A stretch of DNA of 38,375 nucleotides, taken from assembly GCA_012837925.1 (NCBI GenBank), contig DUQE01000175.1, positions 1 through 38,375 on the forward strand. The letters are read 5' to 3'. This DNA is from Bacillota bacterium. GTDB taxonomy: Bacteria; Bacillota; Limnochordia; Darwinibacteriales; Darwinibacteriaceae. Below, piece by piece: positions 4,356 through 11,066 of this stretch. Within the stretch, counting starts at the first letter, position 1. Each line of letters opens with the position of its first letter. The notes beneath the pieces were generated by a model that was not told the origin of the DNA, ran no database searches, and saw nothing but the letters and a program-made list of their open reading frames with translations. The translations under genes were made by a program, and so were the position numbers.

Positions 4356-6204
4356 CGTTCTTCTCCTTCACGATGGCATTGGCCACGCGTAAGCTCGGAC
4401 AGACACCACACCGACTACACTCGTCCCAGCGACAGTCGGGCGTCGGCACCCCTTTTTGCGCCAACTCCCACTCTCTCTGCAAAAAGTCGTAGTCAATGCC
4501 TGCGCTCAAATGCGTCCAAGGTAAGGCTTCACCTATGTCTCTAGTCCGTCCTGCATAGTCTTGAGGATCGATCCCTGCATCACCAAAGGCCTGTTCCCAA
4601 AGATCAAAACGGAAGGAATCTGTCCAGCTGTCAAACTGGCAGCCTAGGTCAACAGCTCTCTCTAGTACAGCCGCCAAGCGACGATCGCCCCTGGCGAAAA
4701 CGGCCTCTAAAAAGCTCTCTTCGACTCTCGGGTAGCTAAAGTGTATGGCAGGATGCCGCAGACGGTCCTGGAGAAAACGCTGTTTTGAACGCAAGATCTC
4801 CATCGATTCCTGGGCCATCCATTGAAACGGCGTGTGAGGTTTGGGAACAAAAGAGGCAACGCTGATGGAAACCTCGGGTCGCCTTCTGGCACTGCGAAAC
4901 TCCTTGCCCCACTCCAGTACCTTGTGCGCCAACTCAACAATGCCTTCTAGATCCTCTTCTGTCTCGGTCGGTAGACCAATCATGAAATAAAGCTTGATTC
5001 GCGACCACCCCGCGGCAAAGGCACTTTGCACTACGTCCTTTAAATCATCATCGGACACATTCTTGTTAATGACATTCCTTAGCCGTTGGGTTCCCGCCTC
5101 GGGGGCGAAGGTAAGTCCTGTCTTCCTGGCTTTTTGAATCTCTTGAGCAAGTTCAATACCGAAAGAATCTAGCCGCAGCGAGGGCAGAGAAACCGAAATG
5201 CCACAGTCTTGATAATGCACTATGAGATCTCTAACGAGGGGACCGATCTGTCCGTAATCGCCGCTGGACAAGGAGGATAACGATATCTCCTCATACCCGG
5301 TGCTTTCTACCAAACGGGCGATCTGCTCCTTAAGAACCCGGGGTTCCCTCTCCCTAACCGGCCTATAGATCATGCCAGCCTGGCAAAAGCGACAACCCCT
5401 GGTACAGCCACGCATGATCTCGCCCATCACGCGATCATGGACTACTTCTACATAAGGAACGACAAACTCCTCGGGATAGGGAAGACGATTGAAGTCTCTA
5501 ACCACGCGCTTTTGAATCTGTGTTGCAGCGTTCGGGACTTGTGATTCTAAGGCCTCAAACCTACCATCCACTCCGTAGATAGGCTTATACCACTTCGGCA
5601 CATAAATCCCCTCAAGGCGAGACAGTTCGGTGAGGAGTTGGTCCTTGGTCAGCCCCTGTGCTTTGCCATCCTTCACTACGTCAAGGATTTCGTGCATCAC
5701 TTCTTCACCTTCACCAAGAACGACAAAATCCAGGAAATCGGCTACTGGTTCTGCGTTAAAGGCCGCAGGTCCACCTGCCATGATCAAAGGCAGCATCTCA
5801 TCTCTCTCCGTACTTCTGCGACGAATGCCCGCCAAATCCAGCATCTTCAGGATATTCGTGAAGCTAAGTTCATGCTGCAGTGTGAACCCCACCAAATCAA
5901 ACTTTGTCAATGTAGAACCCGATTCTAAAGCTGTCAAAGGAATGCCATGTTCCTCCATGAGCTCCTGCATATCAACCCACGGAGCATAAACTCGCTCAGC
6001 TAGAGCGTCGTGTCTTCCATTAATGAGTGCATACAATATCTTAAAGCCTAAATGGCCCATGCCCACATCATAAATGTCAGGAAAGGCAAGCGCGACTTTA
6101 ACGGCTACCTCGCTCCAATTCTTGTGTTGGGCATTGAGTTCATGATTCGTATAGCGAGCTGGTTTTGTGACCAGCGGTAAGAGTGGCACAAGACGCTTGT
6201 CCAT
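4348..6204 (-). CDS. TIGR03960 family B12-binding-like radical SAM protein
   Basis: 618 residues. The N-terminal ~200 residues look like a B12-binding-type Rossmann region (FPDIYDVGMGHLGFKILY, then GGPAAFNAEPVADFLDF, GEGEE). The radical SAM core carries C267-xxx-C271-xx-C274 (GCTRGCRFCQAG) for a 4Fe-4S cluster. The C-terminus has a further cysteine group, DCRWDECSRCGVC, which could bind a second cluster or zinc. The family is widespread in Clostridia with no established substrate. ATG at 6204 preceded by GGGGGTGG. Overlaps the DUF2344 gene by 8 bases; the two are probably partners. Family assignment is firm, the reaction unknown. Confidence 0.93.
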   Translation of the reverse strand: MDKRLVPLLPLVTKPARYTNHELNAQHKNWSEVAVKVALAFPDIYDVGMGHLGFKILYALINGRHDALAERVYAPWVDMQELMEEHGIPLTALESGSTLTKFDLVGFTLQHELSFTNILKMLDLAGIRRRSTERDEMLPLIMAGGPAAFNAEPVADFLDFVVLGEGEEVMHEILDVVKDGKAQGLTKDQLLTELSRLEGIYVPKWYKPIYGVDGRFEALESQVPNAATQIQKRVVRDFNRLPYPEEFVVPYVEVVHDRVMGEIMRGCTRGCRFCQAGMIYRPVREREPRVLKEQIARLVESTGYEEISLSSLSSGDYGQIGPLVRDLIVHYQDCGISVSLPSLRLDSFGIELAQEIQKARKTGLTFAPEAGTQRLRNVINKNVSDDDLKDVVQSAFAAGWSRIKLYFMIGLPTETEEDLEGIVELAHKVLEWGKEFRSARRRPEVSISVASFVPKPHTPFQWMAQESMEILRSKQRFLQDRLRHPAIHFSYPRVEESFLEAVFARGDRRLAAVLERAVDLGCQFDSWTDSFRFDLWEQAFGDAGIDPQDYAGRTRDIGEALPWTHLSAGIDYDFLQREWELAQKGVPTPDCRWDECSRCGVCPSLRVANAIVKEKNVE

Positions 6205-6229: not shown

Positions 6230-7114
6230 CTAAATTTTGTGTACGTTTACTGCCCCTACTTTGTGCAACAATCCATGTTCAAAAAGGGCTCCAATCAACT
6301 CGATTTCTCCAATGAAACCGATTACTTTTCCATCAAGATCAAGAACCCAGATCCTATGGTAACATGGTGGTTGAAAATGCTCGAGAACCTCACCTAACGA
6401 TGACTCTACGGTGGCCACCAAATCTCTTGCCACTAACACGCGCTTCAAACGCAGTTCCTGTTTTTTGTGGGTCAGATAGCGCATGAAGACATAGCTCGCG
6501 TTCTTTTGTTCTTTTCTGGCTACCGAAAAGAGCATGACACCGGAAAAAGCAAAGATAAGTCCCTGATACTCCGACTGAACTGTCAAGTAGGCCCCCCATC
6601 CCACCAGGGCGATACTGAGAATCTGGCCAAGTAGAGCCGCCGTACGTGTAGCTTCCTTGAATCCCCGACCCCGTGCGAGCAGGCTGCGCAAAACCCGTCC
6701 TCCGTCCAAAGGAAGGGCAGGTATGAGATTGAACACCGCCATACCAAGGTTGGCCTGAATGAAGAAGTCAAACCACTGGGGATCGAGTGAGTAATACGGC
6801 GCCAAACCGTAGGCAAAAAAGATAAGCAAACCATTGCCAAGTGGACCTGCTATGGCTACGATCCATTCTATCTGTGGGTTAAGTTGCAGAAAAGCATCAA
6901 TTCGCGTGACACCGCCGAAGGGTAAGAGTTCGACATCGGTGATAGGAAGACGATATACTTTGGCCATTAGAATGTGGCAACTCTCATGCCAGAGCACGAT
7001 AGCAAAGAGTAAAAGCGCTTCGGTCAGTCTCCCGTAGAGAAACGCCATACCCAAAAGCAGAATGAAAAAGGGATTCACTTTAAGGGGAATCCCAAAATAG
7101 TTGCCTATCCGCAT
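6230..7114 (-). CDS. spoIVFB: SpoIVFB-type intramembrane M50 metalloprotease
   Basis: Multi-pass site-2 protease family member; in Bacillus the orthologue cleaves pro-sigma-K at the forespore membrane. 294 residues from the ATG at 7114. The zinc motif is H43-E44-S-C-H47, and the third ligand D137 is in ALPLDGGR, exactly the positions known for B. subtilis SpoIVFB. The usual HELGH is HESCH here. Several hydrophobic segments span residues 15-200; residues from ~220 form a CBS-like cytosolic domain (LVARDLVATVESSLGEV ... VLDLDGKVIGFIGE). The start follows the upstream stop by 4 bases, with GGTGAGGAG overlapping that stop. Next to a short spoIVFA-like gene, fitting a sporulation-signalling role, though vegetative M50 roles are possible. 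Confidence 0.88.
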   Translation of the reverse strand: MRIGNYFGIPLKVNPFFILLLGMAFLYGRLTEALLLFAIVLWHESCHILMAKVYRLPITDVELLPFGGVTRIDAFLQLNPQIEWIVAIAGPLGNGLLIFFAYGLAPYYSLDPQWFDFFIQANLGMAVFNLIPALPLDGGRVLRSLLARGRGFKEATRTAALLGQILSIALVGWGAYLTVQSEYQGLIFAFSGVMLFSVARKEQKNASYVFMRYLTHKKQELRLKRVLVARDLVATVESSLGEVLEHFQPPCYHRIWVLDLDGKVIGFIGEIELIGALFEHGLLHKVGAVNVHKI

Positions 7115-7118
7115 CTCC

Positions 7119-7358
7119 TCACCATCCAGAGGTAGCTTCAGACCACCCTTCGAAGAGAGACCCCAAATCCCAGGTATCCCACTTCTGTTCGAATCCCACC
7201 TTTTCGAGAATGGGCTGCACGGAGAAATTCGTAGAAACAACAAAAGAAACGTATTCTGTTACTGGTTCGGCAAACTCCACATTCGTGTACGCCAAGATCA
7301 TTACTACTACAAAAATACTCAGGGCCATTACCAAGTTCCTGATAAAGCTCTTAGCCAC
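7119..7358 (-). CDS. Small membrane protein, SpoIVFA-like N-terminal part without M23 domain
   Basis: 79 residues. GTG start at 7358 with AAGGAGGTG seven bases upstream. A single transmembrane helix covers about residues 8-24 (LVMALSIFVVVMILAY), followed by ~55 extracytoplasmic residues (YVSFVVSTNFSVQPILEKVG, then FEQKWDTWDLG). In other Firmicutes the gene just before spoIVFB is spoIVFA, a one-helix protein that anchors and inhibits the protease and usually ends in an M23/LytM domain. Topology and position fit, but there is no LytM domain, and no remnant of one in the other frames before spoIVFB. Inference: a minimal SpoIVFA-type partner. It could also be an unrelated small membrane protein. 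Confidence 0.72.
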   Translation of the reverse strand: MAKSFIRNLVMALSIFVVVMILAYTNVEFAEPVTEYVSFVVSTNFSVQPILEKVGFEQKWDTWDLGSLFEGWSEATSGW

Positions 7359-7427
7359 GATTACGCACCTCCTTCGCCTACTACAATATATTACCGAAGG
7401 AGTCGAATCATGAATACTGTCACGAAC

Positions 7428-9230: not shown

Positions 9231-11066
9231 TTACTCCAAAGGTACATCGAGGCCAAAATAAGCATCGAAAATCTTGCGTGCGATGGGAGCAGCTGCGGAC
9301 GATCCGCCTCCTCCTTGTTCGACTACGACAGCCACAAGAACCTCAGGGTTCTCTACTGGAGCGTAACCAACGTACAGACCATTGGAGATTCTGCCCGGCA
9401 CTTCCCATGTTCCCGTCTTTCCAGCCATAGAGTACGGAAAACCTGCCATCACTCCTCTGGCAGTACCCCGAGAATGGGTGATAGGAGCCGTCAGGACAGA
9501 ACTCAGGGCATCCCAGGTCGCCTGTGAGGCCTCCACGGTATGGGATATCTCGGGTTGGGCCCGAAATATGACCGTTCCGTCGGGTGCTTCAATCTCCTTA
9601 ACGATCTGGGGAGCAAATACAGTTCCCTTATTAGCAATGGCTGCATAGGCTTGGGCCAACTGGATCAGGGTCATCTGATGAAACCCCTGCCCGATAGAGA
9701 TCTGTTCGGTGTCCGACGGATACCAGTTCTGTTCTGAGGTAGCCCGGTCACTAAAGGCCTGCCTTTTCCACTCCCGACTGGGAACGATTCCACTCACTTC
9801 ACCCGGGAATAAATCGAGACCCGTCGTTTTTCCGAAACCAAGCTTTCTCATCCACTCAGAAATCCGATCAATTCCAACCTTGGCTCCGTTGTCGGCAAAG
9901 TAATGATTACTCGACATACCCATAGCTCCGTACATATCAATCATGCCAAAAGGAGCCAAACCACTATTGATTACCCAATCCTTCACACCATACTGACTTG
10001 TACCCGTGGCATTAAACCGCTCGGTGGCACTCATAACCCCTTCCTCAAGAATGGTTAGAGCAGTAATGGGCTTAAATGTTGATCCCGGGCCAAAAAGAGC
10101 CTGGGTTACACGATTGAAAAATGGTCTGCGCGAATCGTTACTGAGTGATGTGTAATATGCATTGCGCTGCGACTGATCAATGAGGTTTTTGGGTTCAAAA
10201 CCCGGCATACTGGCCATGACCAAAATTTCCCCTGTTTGCGGGTTCAACACAAGAATAGCTCCCGTTTGCGTGCCGGGATTATCTTCTAGATTGAGAATAT
10301 GTTCGTAGAACGCTCTTTCAGCCACTTCCTGCAGGTGAGCGTCGATCGTCAGTGTGATGTTGTGCCCGGGCACCGGTTCGAGCACATTCACTGTGCGAAT
10401 CGGCCGGTTGAGCGCATTAACCTCAACCGTCAAAGTCCCCGTCTCACCACGTAGCAACTCCTCATACGTCTGTTCAATCCCGCTCTTGCCCACTAAATCG
10501 CTTCCACGATACGTCGTGCCGTACCGCTGCAACTCCGACGCAGTAATGATCCCCATGTAGCCCACTACGTGGGAAGCCAGTTCACCATACAAATATTCCC
10601 GTACCGGTTCTTCCTCGATAAAGATCCCTGGTAGGTTCATACGATTCTCTTCTATAGCGACAACCGTCTCTGGCTGGACATCTTGTTTAATGCGCACAGG
10701 CTCATAAGGAAATCCTTTACCTTTCTCGAGAGCCTCAGCCAACTCTTCTGGAGTCAGGCCCAGTACCTCGCAAAGGAGACAAAGACTTTCTTCATCTTCC
10801 TGAAGGTATCCACCTGGAACAACAGATACCGTAAAGGCTGGCTTGCTGCGGACTAAAACTTGCCCGTTGCGATCTGCAATTTCGCCACGGGGAGGAAGCA
10901 AGCGCAGCTGGCGCATTCGGTTGCCGTCGGCTAGGCGCGCATAGTGCTCCCCTCTGGCGAGCTGCAAAAACCAGAGCCTGCCCACGAGAATGAATGTGCA
11001 AAGCAGAATAATGGCAAAAAGAACGAAAAGACGTTTTTCTGTGTTTCTCACTTCCACCGACGTCAC
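9231..11066 (-). CDS. mrdA: Penicillin-binding protein 2, elongasome transpeptidase
   Basis: Class B PBP that cross-links peptidoglycan in the Rod (elongation) complex. 611 residues: N-terminal membrane anchor (about residues 13-30), PBP dimerisation domain with the PPRGEIADRNG signature, and transpeptidase domain with S329-T-F-K332 (active serine), S385-S-N387 and K550-T-G552. The GTG start at 11066 overlaps the mreD stop by 4 bases (GTGA); in-frame GTGs shortly downstream are alternatives. Follows mreBCD as in most rod-shaped bacteria. The partner glycosyltransferase gene rodA, often in this cluster, is not in the window. Confidence 0.95.
   Translation of the reverse strand: MTSVEVRNTEKRLFVLFAIILLCTFILVGRLWFLQLARGEHYARLADGNRMRQLRLLPPRGEIADRNGQVLVRSKPAFTVSVVPGGYLQEDEESLCLLCEVLGLTPEELAEALEKGKGFPYEPVRIKQDVQPETVVAIEENRMNLPGIFIEEEPVREYLYGELASHVVGYMGIITASELQRYGTTYRGSDLVGKSGIEQTYEELLRGETGTLTVEVNALNRPIRTVNVLEPVPGHNITLTIDAHLQEVAERAFYEHILNLEDNPGTQTGAILVLNPQTGEILVMASMPGFEPKNLIDQSQRNAYYTSLSNDSRRPFFNRVTQALFGPGSTFKPITALTILEEGVMSATERFNATGTSQYGVKDWVINSGLAPFGMIDMYGAMGMSSNHYFADNGAKVGIDRISEWMRKLGFGKTTGLDLFPGEVSGIVPSREWKRQAFSDRATSEQNWYPSDTEQISIGQGFHQMTLIQLAQAYAAIANKGTVFAPQIVKEIEAPDGTVIFRAQPEISHTVEASQATWDALSSVLTAPITHSRGTARGVMAGFPYSMAGKTGTWEVPGRISNGLYVGYAPVENPEVLVAVVVEQGGGGSSAAAPIARKIFDAYFGLDVPLE

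Follow-up and report, generated by a model that had tools for sequence, protein, structure and literature searches.

A short SpoIVFA-related protein without a LytM domain is encoded directly before SpoIVFB in a member of the Darwinibacteriaceae

The window analyzed here is a stretch of 38,375 nucleotides from the draft genome (G000) of a Bacillota bacterium of the family Darwinibacteriaceae. Its minus strand carries, in order, a PBP2 gene (9231-11066), minC, minD, minE, an ORF of 79 amino acids, a protease gene, and genes of the TIGR03960 and TIGR03936 families. The small ORF (7119-7358, minus strand, GTG start) is described below as encoding a LytM-less SpoIVFA-type protein, and the gene after it (6230-7114, minus strand) encodes a SpoIVFB-type site-2 protease of 294 amino acids. 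The TGA of the small ORF ends at 7119 and the ATG of the protease gene starts at 7114, leaving a gap of 4 bases. The likely ribosome-binding site of the ORF is AGGAGG at 7368-7373 (minus strand) and that of the protease gene is GAGGAG at 7115-7120 (minus strand), which overlaps the stop codon of the ORF. Because of this overlap, the last residues of the small protein, GW, may be conserved for the DNA and not for the protein. Membership of the ORF in the min gene cluster was considered and rejected, since a class-level relative (L038) has a rodA-like gene upstream and still has SpoIVFB downstream.

A promoter-like element, TCATGAT-N14-AATATATT (7385-7413, minus strand), precedes the two-gene unit. 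Its general form, TCATGAT-N14-AATATA(C/T)T between minE and the ORF, is kept in 23 of 29 loci, the same loci from which the pattern was derived, and the pattern occurs once in the window against a mean of 0.0 in 100 mononucleotide shuffles. The element resembles the sigma-E/sigma-K type and would presumably act as a promoter. A printed C. difficile example of the sigma-E type is ATA-N16-CATATATA (PMC3789822), and B. subtilis bofA, spoIVFA and spoIVFB are stated to be sigma-E controlled (PMC517825). No strict match occurred at the scanned bofA and sigK loci, where two bofA loci gave two loose matches, so these loci lend the sigma-E assignment no support.

The 79-residue protein has a single hydrophobic stretch near its N-terminus, with hydropathy maxima at residues 5-23 and 9-27. 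The predicted transmembrane (TM) segment (about residues 5-27; 7278-7346, minus strand) is placed by hydropathy, by the structure model and by alignment with the TM segment of LytM-type SpoIVFA, and a helix at residues 2-24 is the sole confident part of the model (mean pLDDT 83 and 89 in the first two ten-residue blocks). The positions of K3 and R7 suggest that the tail faces outward. A conserved juxtamembrane segment (about residues 30-50; 7209-7271, minus strand) aligns after the TM of both LytM-type and Bacillus-type SpoIVFA, and Y36 and T43 are invariant across 30 aligned small-ORF sequences. At most about 8 residues precede the TM, meaning that the cytosolic N-terminal part of about 70 residues is absent. 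Scans of Pfam and NCBIfam gave the protein no match at E<=1, and M23 was found at E<=0.1 in none of the 30 aligned sequences, this protein included, in agreement with the initial annotation, which had described a protein with no LytM domain.

The neighboring protease matches Pfam M50 (E 4e-17) and the SpoIVFB chain 8vjl_A in the PDB (E 4e-22), and its model compares to 8vjm with a TM-score of 0.76. It has the S2P fold, an HExxH site (HESCH) with the NLIPALPLDGGR motif, the N..P.LPLDGG signature of SpoIVFB and a C-terminal CBS domain whose match falls below Pfam's cut-off. It thus has the S2P fold, HExxH, LDGG and CBS domain in common with the SpoIVFB of 8vjl and 8vjm, from which it differs in being only about 28% identical; otherwise nothing about it is unusual. 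HESCH in place of HELGH had been singled out earlier as a peculiarity. The motif is indeed present, but it is an ordinary HExxH, because the two positions in the middle differ from protein to protein in an alignment of 20 proteases (HELAH, HESAH, HETAH, HESFH and others).

Among 40 genomes compared, 34 were read as having a SpoIVFB ortholog, the window's own included, and the other six (G008, G022, G025, G027, G029, G034) gave only weak M50 matches. The small ORF lies directly before SpoIVFB in 31 of these 34 genomes. In 29 of them it stops 2-9 bases short of SpoIVFB, in G031 it likewise lies directly before SpoIVFB, and the 31 include a weak 61-amino-acid match about 31-34 bases before SpoIVFB in G037. 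A contig end cuts the ORF in G002, leaving its last codons visible, and nothing was found before SpoIVFB in G038 and G039. For pN/pS, six same-genus sequences were used, the other two of the eight being truncated at a contig end or different in length; the value for the ORF was 0.28 in frame versus 0.91 and 2.4 in the shifted frames, and that for SpoIVFB was 0.20. The length is 76-83 amino acids in 28 of the 30 aligned sequences. Constraint in frame only, together with the conserved position, shows that the ORF is more than a chance reading frame, and the small ORF is confirmed as a real gene under purifying selection. The one-helix protein first called from the sequence, and its location in the place of spoIVFA 4 bases from spoIVFB, therefore stand, and the lack of conservation in relatives that would have spoken against the call was not seen. 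No relatives of the protein were found in plasmid records at E<=0.01.

A profile of the 30 aligned small-ORF sequences was searched in 398 genomes of the phylum and gave 133 matches at E<=1. Among the best 24 loci outside the order (L074-L097), 17 have long frames with M23 before SpoIVFB and five have short ones; of the remaining two, L080 has M23 with SpoIVFB in two frames, and L084 has M23 with no SpoIVFB in the stretch. To guard against circularity, LytM proteins for comparison were fetched only by their position before SpoIVFB. With hhalign, the profile matched 24 such proteins (set A3) at a probability of 95.7 (E 1e-8) over the TM and the next segment. As set A3 was hand-picked after the profile scores had been seen, the test was repeated on all 42 usable position-fetched LytM proteins, which come from other families (53 loci minus two cut frames and nine already listed by the profile search), and gave a probability of 96.3 (E 1.6e-9). 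For the 18 among them that are not in set A3, the probability was 92.6. As for the controls, no reversed profile exceeded 12.6 and no SpoIVFB window 0.4. The match to 12 Bacillus-type SpoIVFA proteins was weaker (probability 83, E 8.5e-6; about 1 when reversed), and the label of this set rests on L203, which adjoins a SpoIVFB matching the B. subtilis chain 8vjl_A at E 4e-142. A LytM set that was largely profile-found (A4) matched the Bacillus set at a probability of 99.9 over the TM and LytM. Pfam M23 is present in 24 of 24 proteins of set A3, and none of the Pfam and NCBIfam models scanned names either the LytM-bearing or the LytM-less form.

By these sequence comparisons, the 79-residue protein shares the TM and juxtamembrane piece of SpoIVFA, whereas LytM is absent and so is nearly the whole cytosolic part. 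Like B. subtilis-type SpoIVFA (L194-L205), it has one TM, is encoded directly before spoIVFB in a genome with BofA, and carries the homologous TM and juxtamembrane segment (probability 83). Unlike it, it has neither LytM nor the cytosolic part of about 70 residues, and the alignment shows no counterpart of the later linker. It has the locus, the TM and the segment in common with the LytM-bearing SpoIVFA-like proteins (L079, L081-L083, L085-L097, L102 and others; probability 96 for the 42 position-fetched), which differ in an M23/LytM domain at the end (Pfam in 24 of 24 of A3, a home-made profile for the rest). Since the two canonical features, LytM and the cytosolic part, were looked for and are absent, the protein is classed from sequence as a SpoIVFA-related variant, not as canonical SpoIVFA.

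A second, full SpoIVFA gene elsewhere in the draft genome, which would also have spoken against the initial call, was considered and discarded: the profile gave the window copy and one weak 58-amino-acid frame (E 0.035). Four M23 proteins were found in the genome, of which three are by eye of LysM, peptidoglycan-binding or lipoprotein types. The fourth (L004, on G000:C101) is a 268-amino-acid protein with M23 (Pfam E 8e-11) and one apparent TM, encoded between ATP synthase epsilon and an mreB-like gene, and from this gene place it is probably the SpoIIQ of this genome.

The gene before SpoIVFB was then read at 143 loci (39 from the 40 genomes and 104 from searches of the phylum), of which 70 have a LytM form, 44 a short form and 23 neither, four are without SpoIVFB and two are at contig ends. 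The 104 phylum loci are a non-random sample, being profile matches or one to few per family from about 150 listed SpoIVFB places. The 70 LytM loci were assigned with an M23 profile built for this purpose, and Pfam was run on 24 of them. The 23 loci with neither form became 16 after four unrelated M50 loci and one broken SpoIVFB frame were set aside and two were relabelled: L163 on sequence, and L160 from none to short after BofA had been seen in its genome and the upstream frame read. L145 may be a broken gene, and L039, L101, L162 and L164 are weak profile matches. At L160 (G133), a frame of 125 amino acids (1617-1992) lies directly before SpoIVFB, with one apparent TM and no LytM; unrecognized by the profile, it is possibly a further diverged LytM-less SpoIVFA.

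A quick tree was made of 114 SpoIVFB proteins. It leaves out L047, L084, L176 and L177 (no SpoIVFB in the locus), L014, L042-L046, L080, L098 and L106, four LytM loci in which SpoIVFB runs off the end of the locus (L087, L088, L091, L095), and 12 close relatives that were thinned. The window's order forms one supported group. On this tree the short state requires 10 changes, five of them forced by well-supported branches. LytM-less versions are thus recurrent by sequence, with at least five changes of state, gain and loss being indistinguishable on the tree. Family f62 contains both states, with LytM in five loci of genus g77 (one in the tree) and none in four loci of genus g155. Like the window protein, the other LytM-less proteins (f11, f15, f19, f62 genus g155, f79, f101, and f65 by eye) are short, with one TM and a SpoIVFB neighbor. 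They differ in their much diverged sequences, and those of f19 and f79 in a cytosolic part of about 50-60 residues that is kept.

BofA was found in 29 of the 40 genomes. In the window's genome, which is among them, it keeps by eye the asparagines, the threonine and the GLPG turn, whose counterparts are reported as important (PMC9042235, PMC12632252). Across the 114 tree rows, BofA is present at 90 of 98 loci with SpoIVFA of either form and at none of the 16 without: 63 of 65 LytM loci, 27 of 33 short loci and 0 of 16 with neither (Fisher p 6e-14, with ancestry ignored). The link comes down to two independent pairs on well-supported branches, or nine on all branches. SpoIVFA of either form thus co-occurs with BofA in these genome sequences, with too few independent pairs to set this apart from shared ancestry. 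One caveat is that BofA absence was keyed by hand from listings, and that before L160 was relabelled BofA was counted at one of 17 loci without SpoIVFA. The loci with SpoIVFB but neither SpoIVFA before it nor a BofA match are L040, L041, L099, L100, L115, L124, L134, L141, L146, L157, L165, L167, L169, L170, L172 and L175; SpoIVB is present in 15 of these 16 genomes and was not found in G306.

The signaling proteases and sigma-K were also surveyed. SpoIVB (S55) is found at full strength in 32 of the 40 genomes and partially in two. It was not found at full strength in the window's draft genome, and six of the seven other same-genus genomes have it. Only a second, weakly matching protein turned up in the SpoIVB search of G000, G007, G025 and G027, and nothing in G022 and G029. 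Of the 30 genomes whose SpoIVFA is short or absent, 29 have SpoIVB; since it is kept also where SpoIVFA is absent, its presence says nothing about its target. S41 peptidases occur in 35 of 36 genomes, with CtpB indistinguishable from other S41 proteins. The sigK gene of the window's genome is in two halves on two contigs (G000:C123 and C6), and the pro-region of the N-terminal half aligns with B. subtilis pro-sigma-K from residue 7. Regarding the initial query whether this genome encodes pro-sigma-K, SpoIVB and BofA, BofA and a two-part pro-sigma-K are thus there, while SpoIVB was not found at full strength in the draft.

In the window's family, sigK is split in 21 of 22 genomes, with both halves listed in 20 and lying about 1.6-4.4 kb apart where they are on one contig; besides the window's own genome, examples are L180 (G005; 1055-1483 and 5407-5766), G017:C1 and G010:C65. 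The L180 insert contains a resolvase/recombinase beside the C-terminal half, a GH65-family enzyme and a HAD-family protein resembling beta-phosphoglucomutase, and looks like a small skin-like element with sugar-enzyme cargo and putative excision. The same short protein is also present in order-level relatives whose sigK is intact. G008, of the window's family, has BofA, SpoIVB and split sigK, and a SpoIVFB ortholog was not found in its draft. Four genomes of families f2 and f5 lack sigK over the cut-off, full SpoIVB, BofA and the small ORF beside an M50 gene. Three f5 genomes (G025, G027, G029) have Spo0A over the cut-off, and neither sigK over the cut-off nor full SpoIVB nor BofA was found in them; these lineages may have lost sporulation and kept Spo0A.

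Work on B. subtilis places SpoIVB cuts in SpoIVFA at 104, 116, 146 and 154 and the CtpB cut at 131, all between the TM (73-90) and LytM (160-255), and its model has CtpB act only once SpoIVB has removed LytM (PMC3808539). The assumption of the initial annotation that SpoIVB and CtpB target LytM itself is therefore incorrect, as the cuts fall in the linker between LytM and the membrane. The conserved segment of the 79-residue protein corresponds to the start of this linker. The supposition of the initial annotation that the checkpoint must work differently here is sound in one respect, as the shedding of LytM should drop out, but the checkpoint need not be absent, because the conserved segment is the start of the cut linker. 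In a structural study (PMC12632252), crosslinks put the SpoIVFA TM on the C-terminal region of BofA. The models of that study for three species position the stretch of SpoIVFA that follows the TM at the gate of SpoIVFB; one crosslink is at odds with this arrangement, and for a fourth species, P. polymyxa, the modeled arrangement is a different one.

Homology to the membrane part of SpoIVFA, linkage to SpoIVFB, coding constraint, co-occurrence with BofA and a promoter-like element of its own favor, with a probability of roughly 0.6, the reading that the 79-residue protein is a minimal SpoIVFA-like lock on SpoIVFB that acts with BofA and is released by cutting of its short tail. The protein would sit in the mother-cell membrane and hold BofA on SpoIVFB, and the two would help to keep SpoIVFB closed to pro-sigma-K. 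A protease from the forespore (SpoIVB, possibly with a CtpB-like tail protease) would then cut or trim the outer tail of about 50 residues, the lock would open and sigma-K would be made, with no LytM to shed. Membership in an inhibition complex, cleavage and the order of these events are inferred. The reading also draws on the important BofA residues kept in this genome, on the published crosslinks and gate models, and on the alignment of the sigma-K pro-region with B. subtilis pro-sigma-K. Several observations count against it: the aligned segment ends before the counterpart of SpoIVFA residues 131-154, the piece said to be most important for inhibition (PMC3808539); BofA had no match at six of 33 short loci compared with two of 65 LytM loci; SpoIVB did not turn up at full strength in this genome; the match to the Bacillus-type set taken by itself has a probability of just 83; the gate models have the discrepancies described above; and the BofA link has few independent pairs behind it.

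The explanation that comes closest is one in which the protein is an uncut scaffold that joins BofA to SpoIVFB, with release through BofA or with timing set elsewhere, for example by excision of the element that splits sigK. A tail of only about 50 residues would suit this, as would the split sigK of nearly all genomes in the window's family and the report that CtpB cuts BofA too (PMC9042235). However, the order-level relatives with intact sigK retain the same short protein, and the near-constant presence of SpoIVB noted above (29 of 30 genomes) is non-discriminating, as that count takes in genomes lacking SpoIVFA; we regard the scaffold as possible but unlikely. It is much less probable that an unrelated one-helix protein displaced SpoIVFA and serves as a partner or stabilizer of SpoIVFB, even though the curated family libraries show no relation and Galperin (2012) proposed non-orthologous displacement of spoIVFA in clostridia (PMC3533761). 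The profile matches LytM-type SpoIVFA at the right place with low reversed controls, and other families have forms that keep the cytosolic part without LytM (L137, L147, L152; their cytosolic parts were read from an alignment whose L074 row was out of frame). That the gene is a decaying, functionless remnant of a full SpoIVFA gene is the least credible explanation of all. In its favor are the small size of the protein relative to SpoIVFA and the lineages in which this position holds no gene, but pN/pS is 0.28 compared with 0.91 and 2.4 in the shifted frames, 28 of 30 aligned sequences keep a length of 76-83 amino acids, and the promoter-like element and ribosome site are conserved.

With the minimal lock as the preferred reading, the data suggest that the sporulation checkpoint can do without the outer (LytM) domain of SpoIVFA. 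A broader proposal, which we hold tentatively and at slightly less than even odds, is that BofA and the TM and juxtamembrane piece of SpoIVFA together make up the core of the sigma-K lock, and that several lineages would have this core only, with one-step trimming of the tail. Galperin (2012) reports no SpoIVFA in clostridia and proposes unrelated replacements (PMC3533761), and Mandal (2025) raises the issue of whether SpoIVFB is controlled, and by what means, in bacteria seemingly without SpoIVFA. No description of a LytM-less SpoIVFA turned up in the search listings of an open-access library, a scope outside which most subscription papers fall. If LytM is optional, the reported rarity of SpoIVFA outside the Bacilli would be largely a failure of detection, and the small-ORF signature finds SpoIVFA-type proteins beyond the curated libraries. 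In lineages that have only the core, forespore signaling would then come down to trimming a short tail in one step, without any shedding of LytM. The piece of SpoIVFA that is kept is the one that the published models place at the protease gate, and the 79-residue protein would be a small natural construct with which to tell the inhibiting from the signal-receiving part of SpoIVFA.
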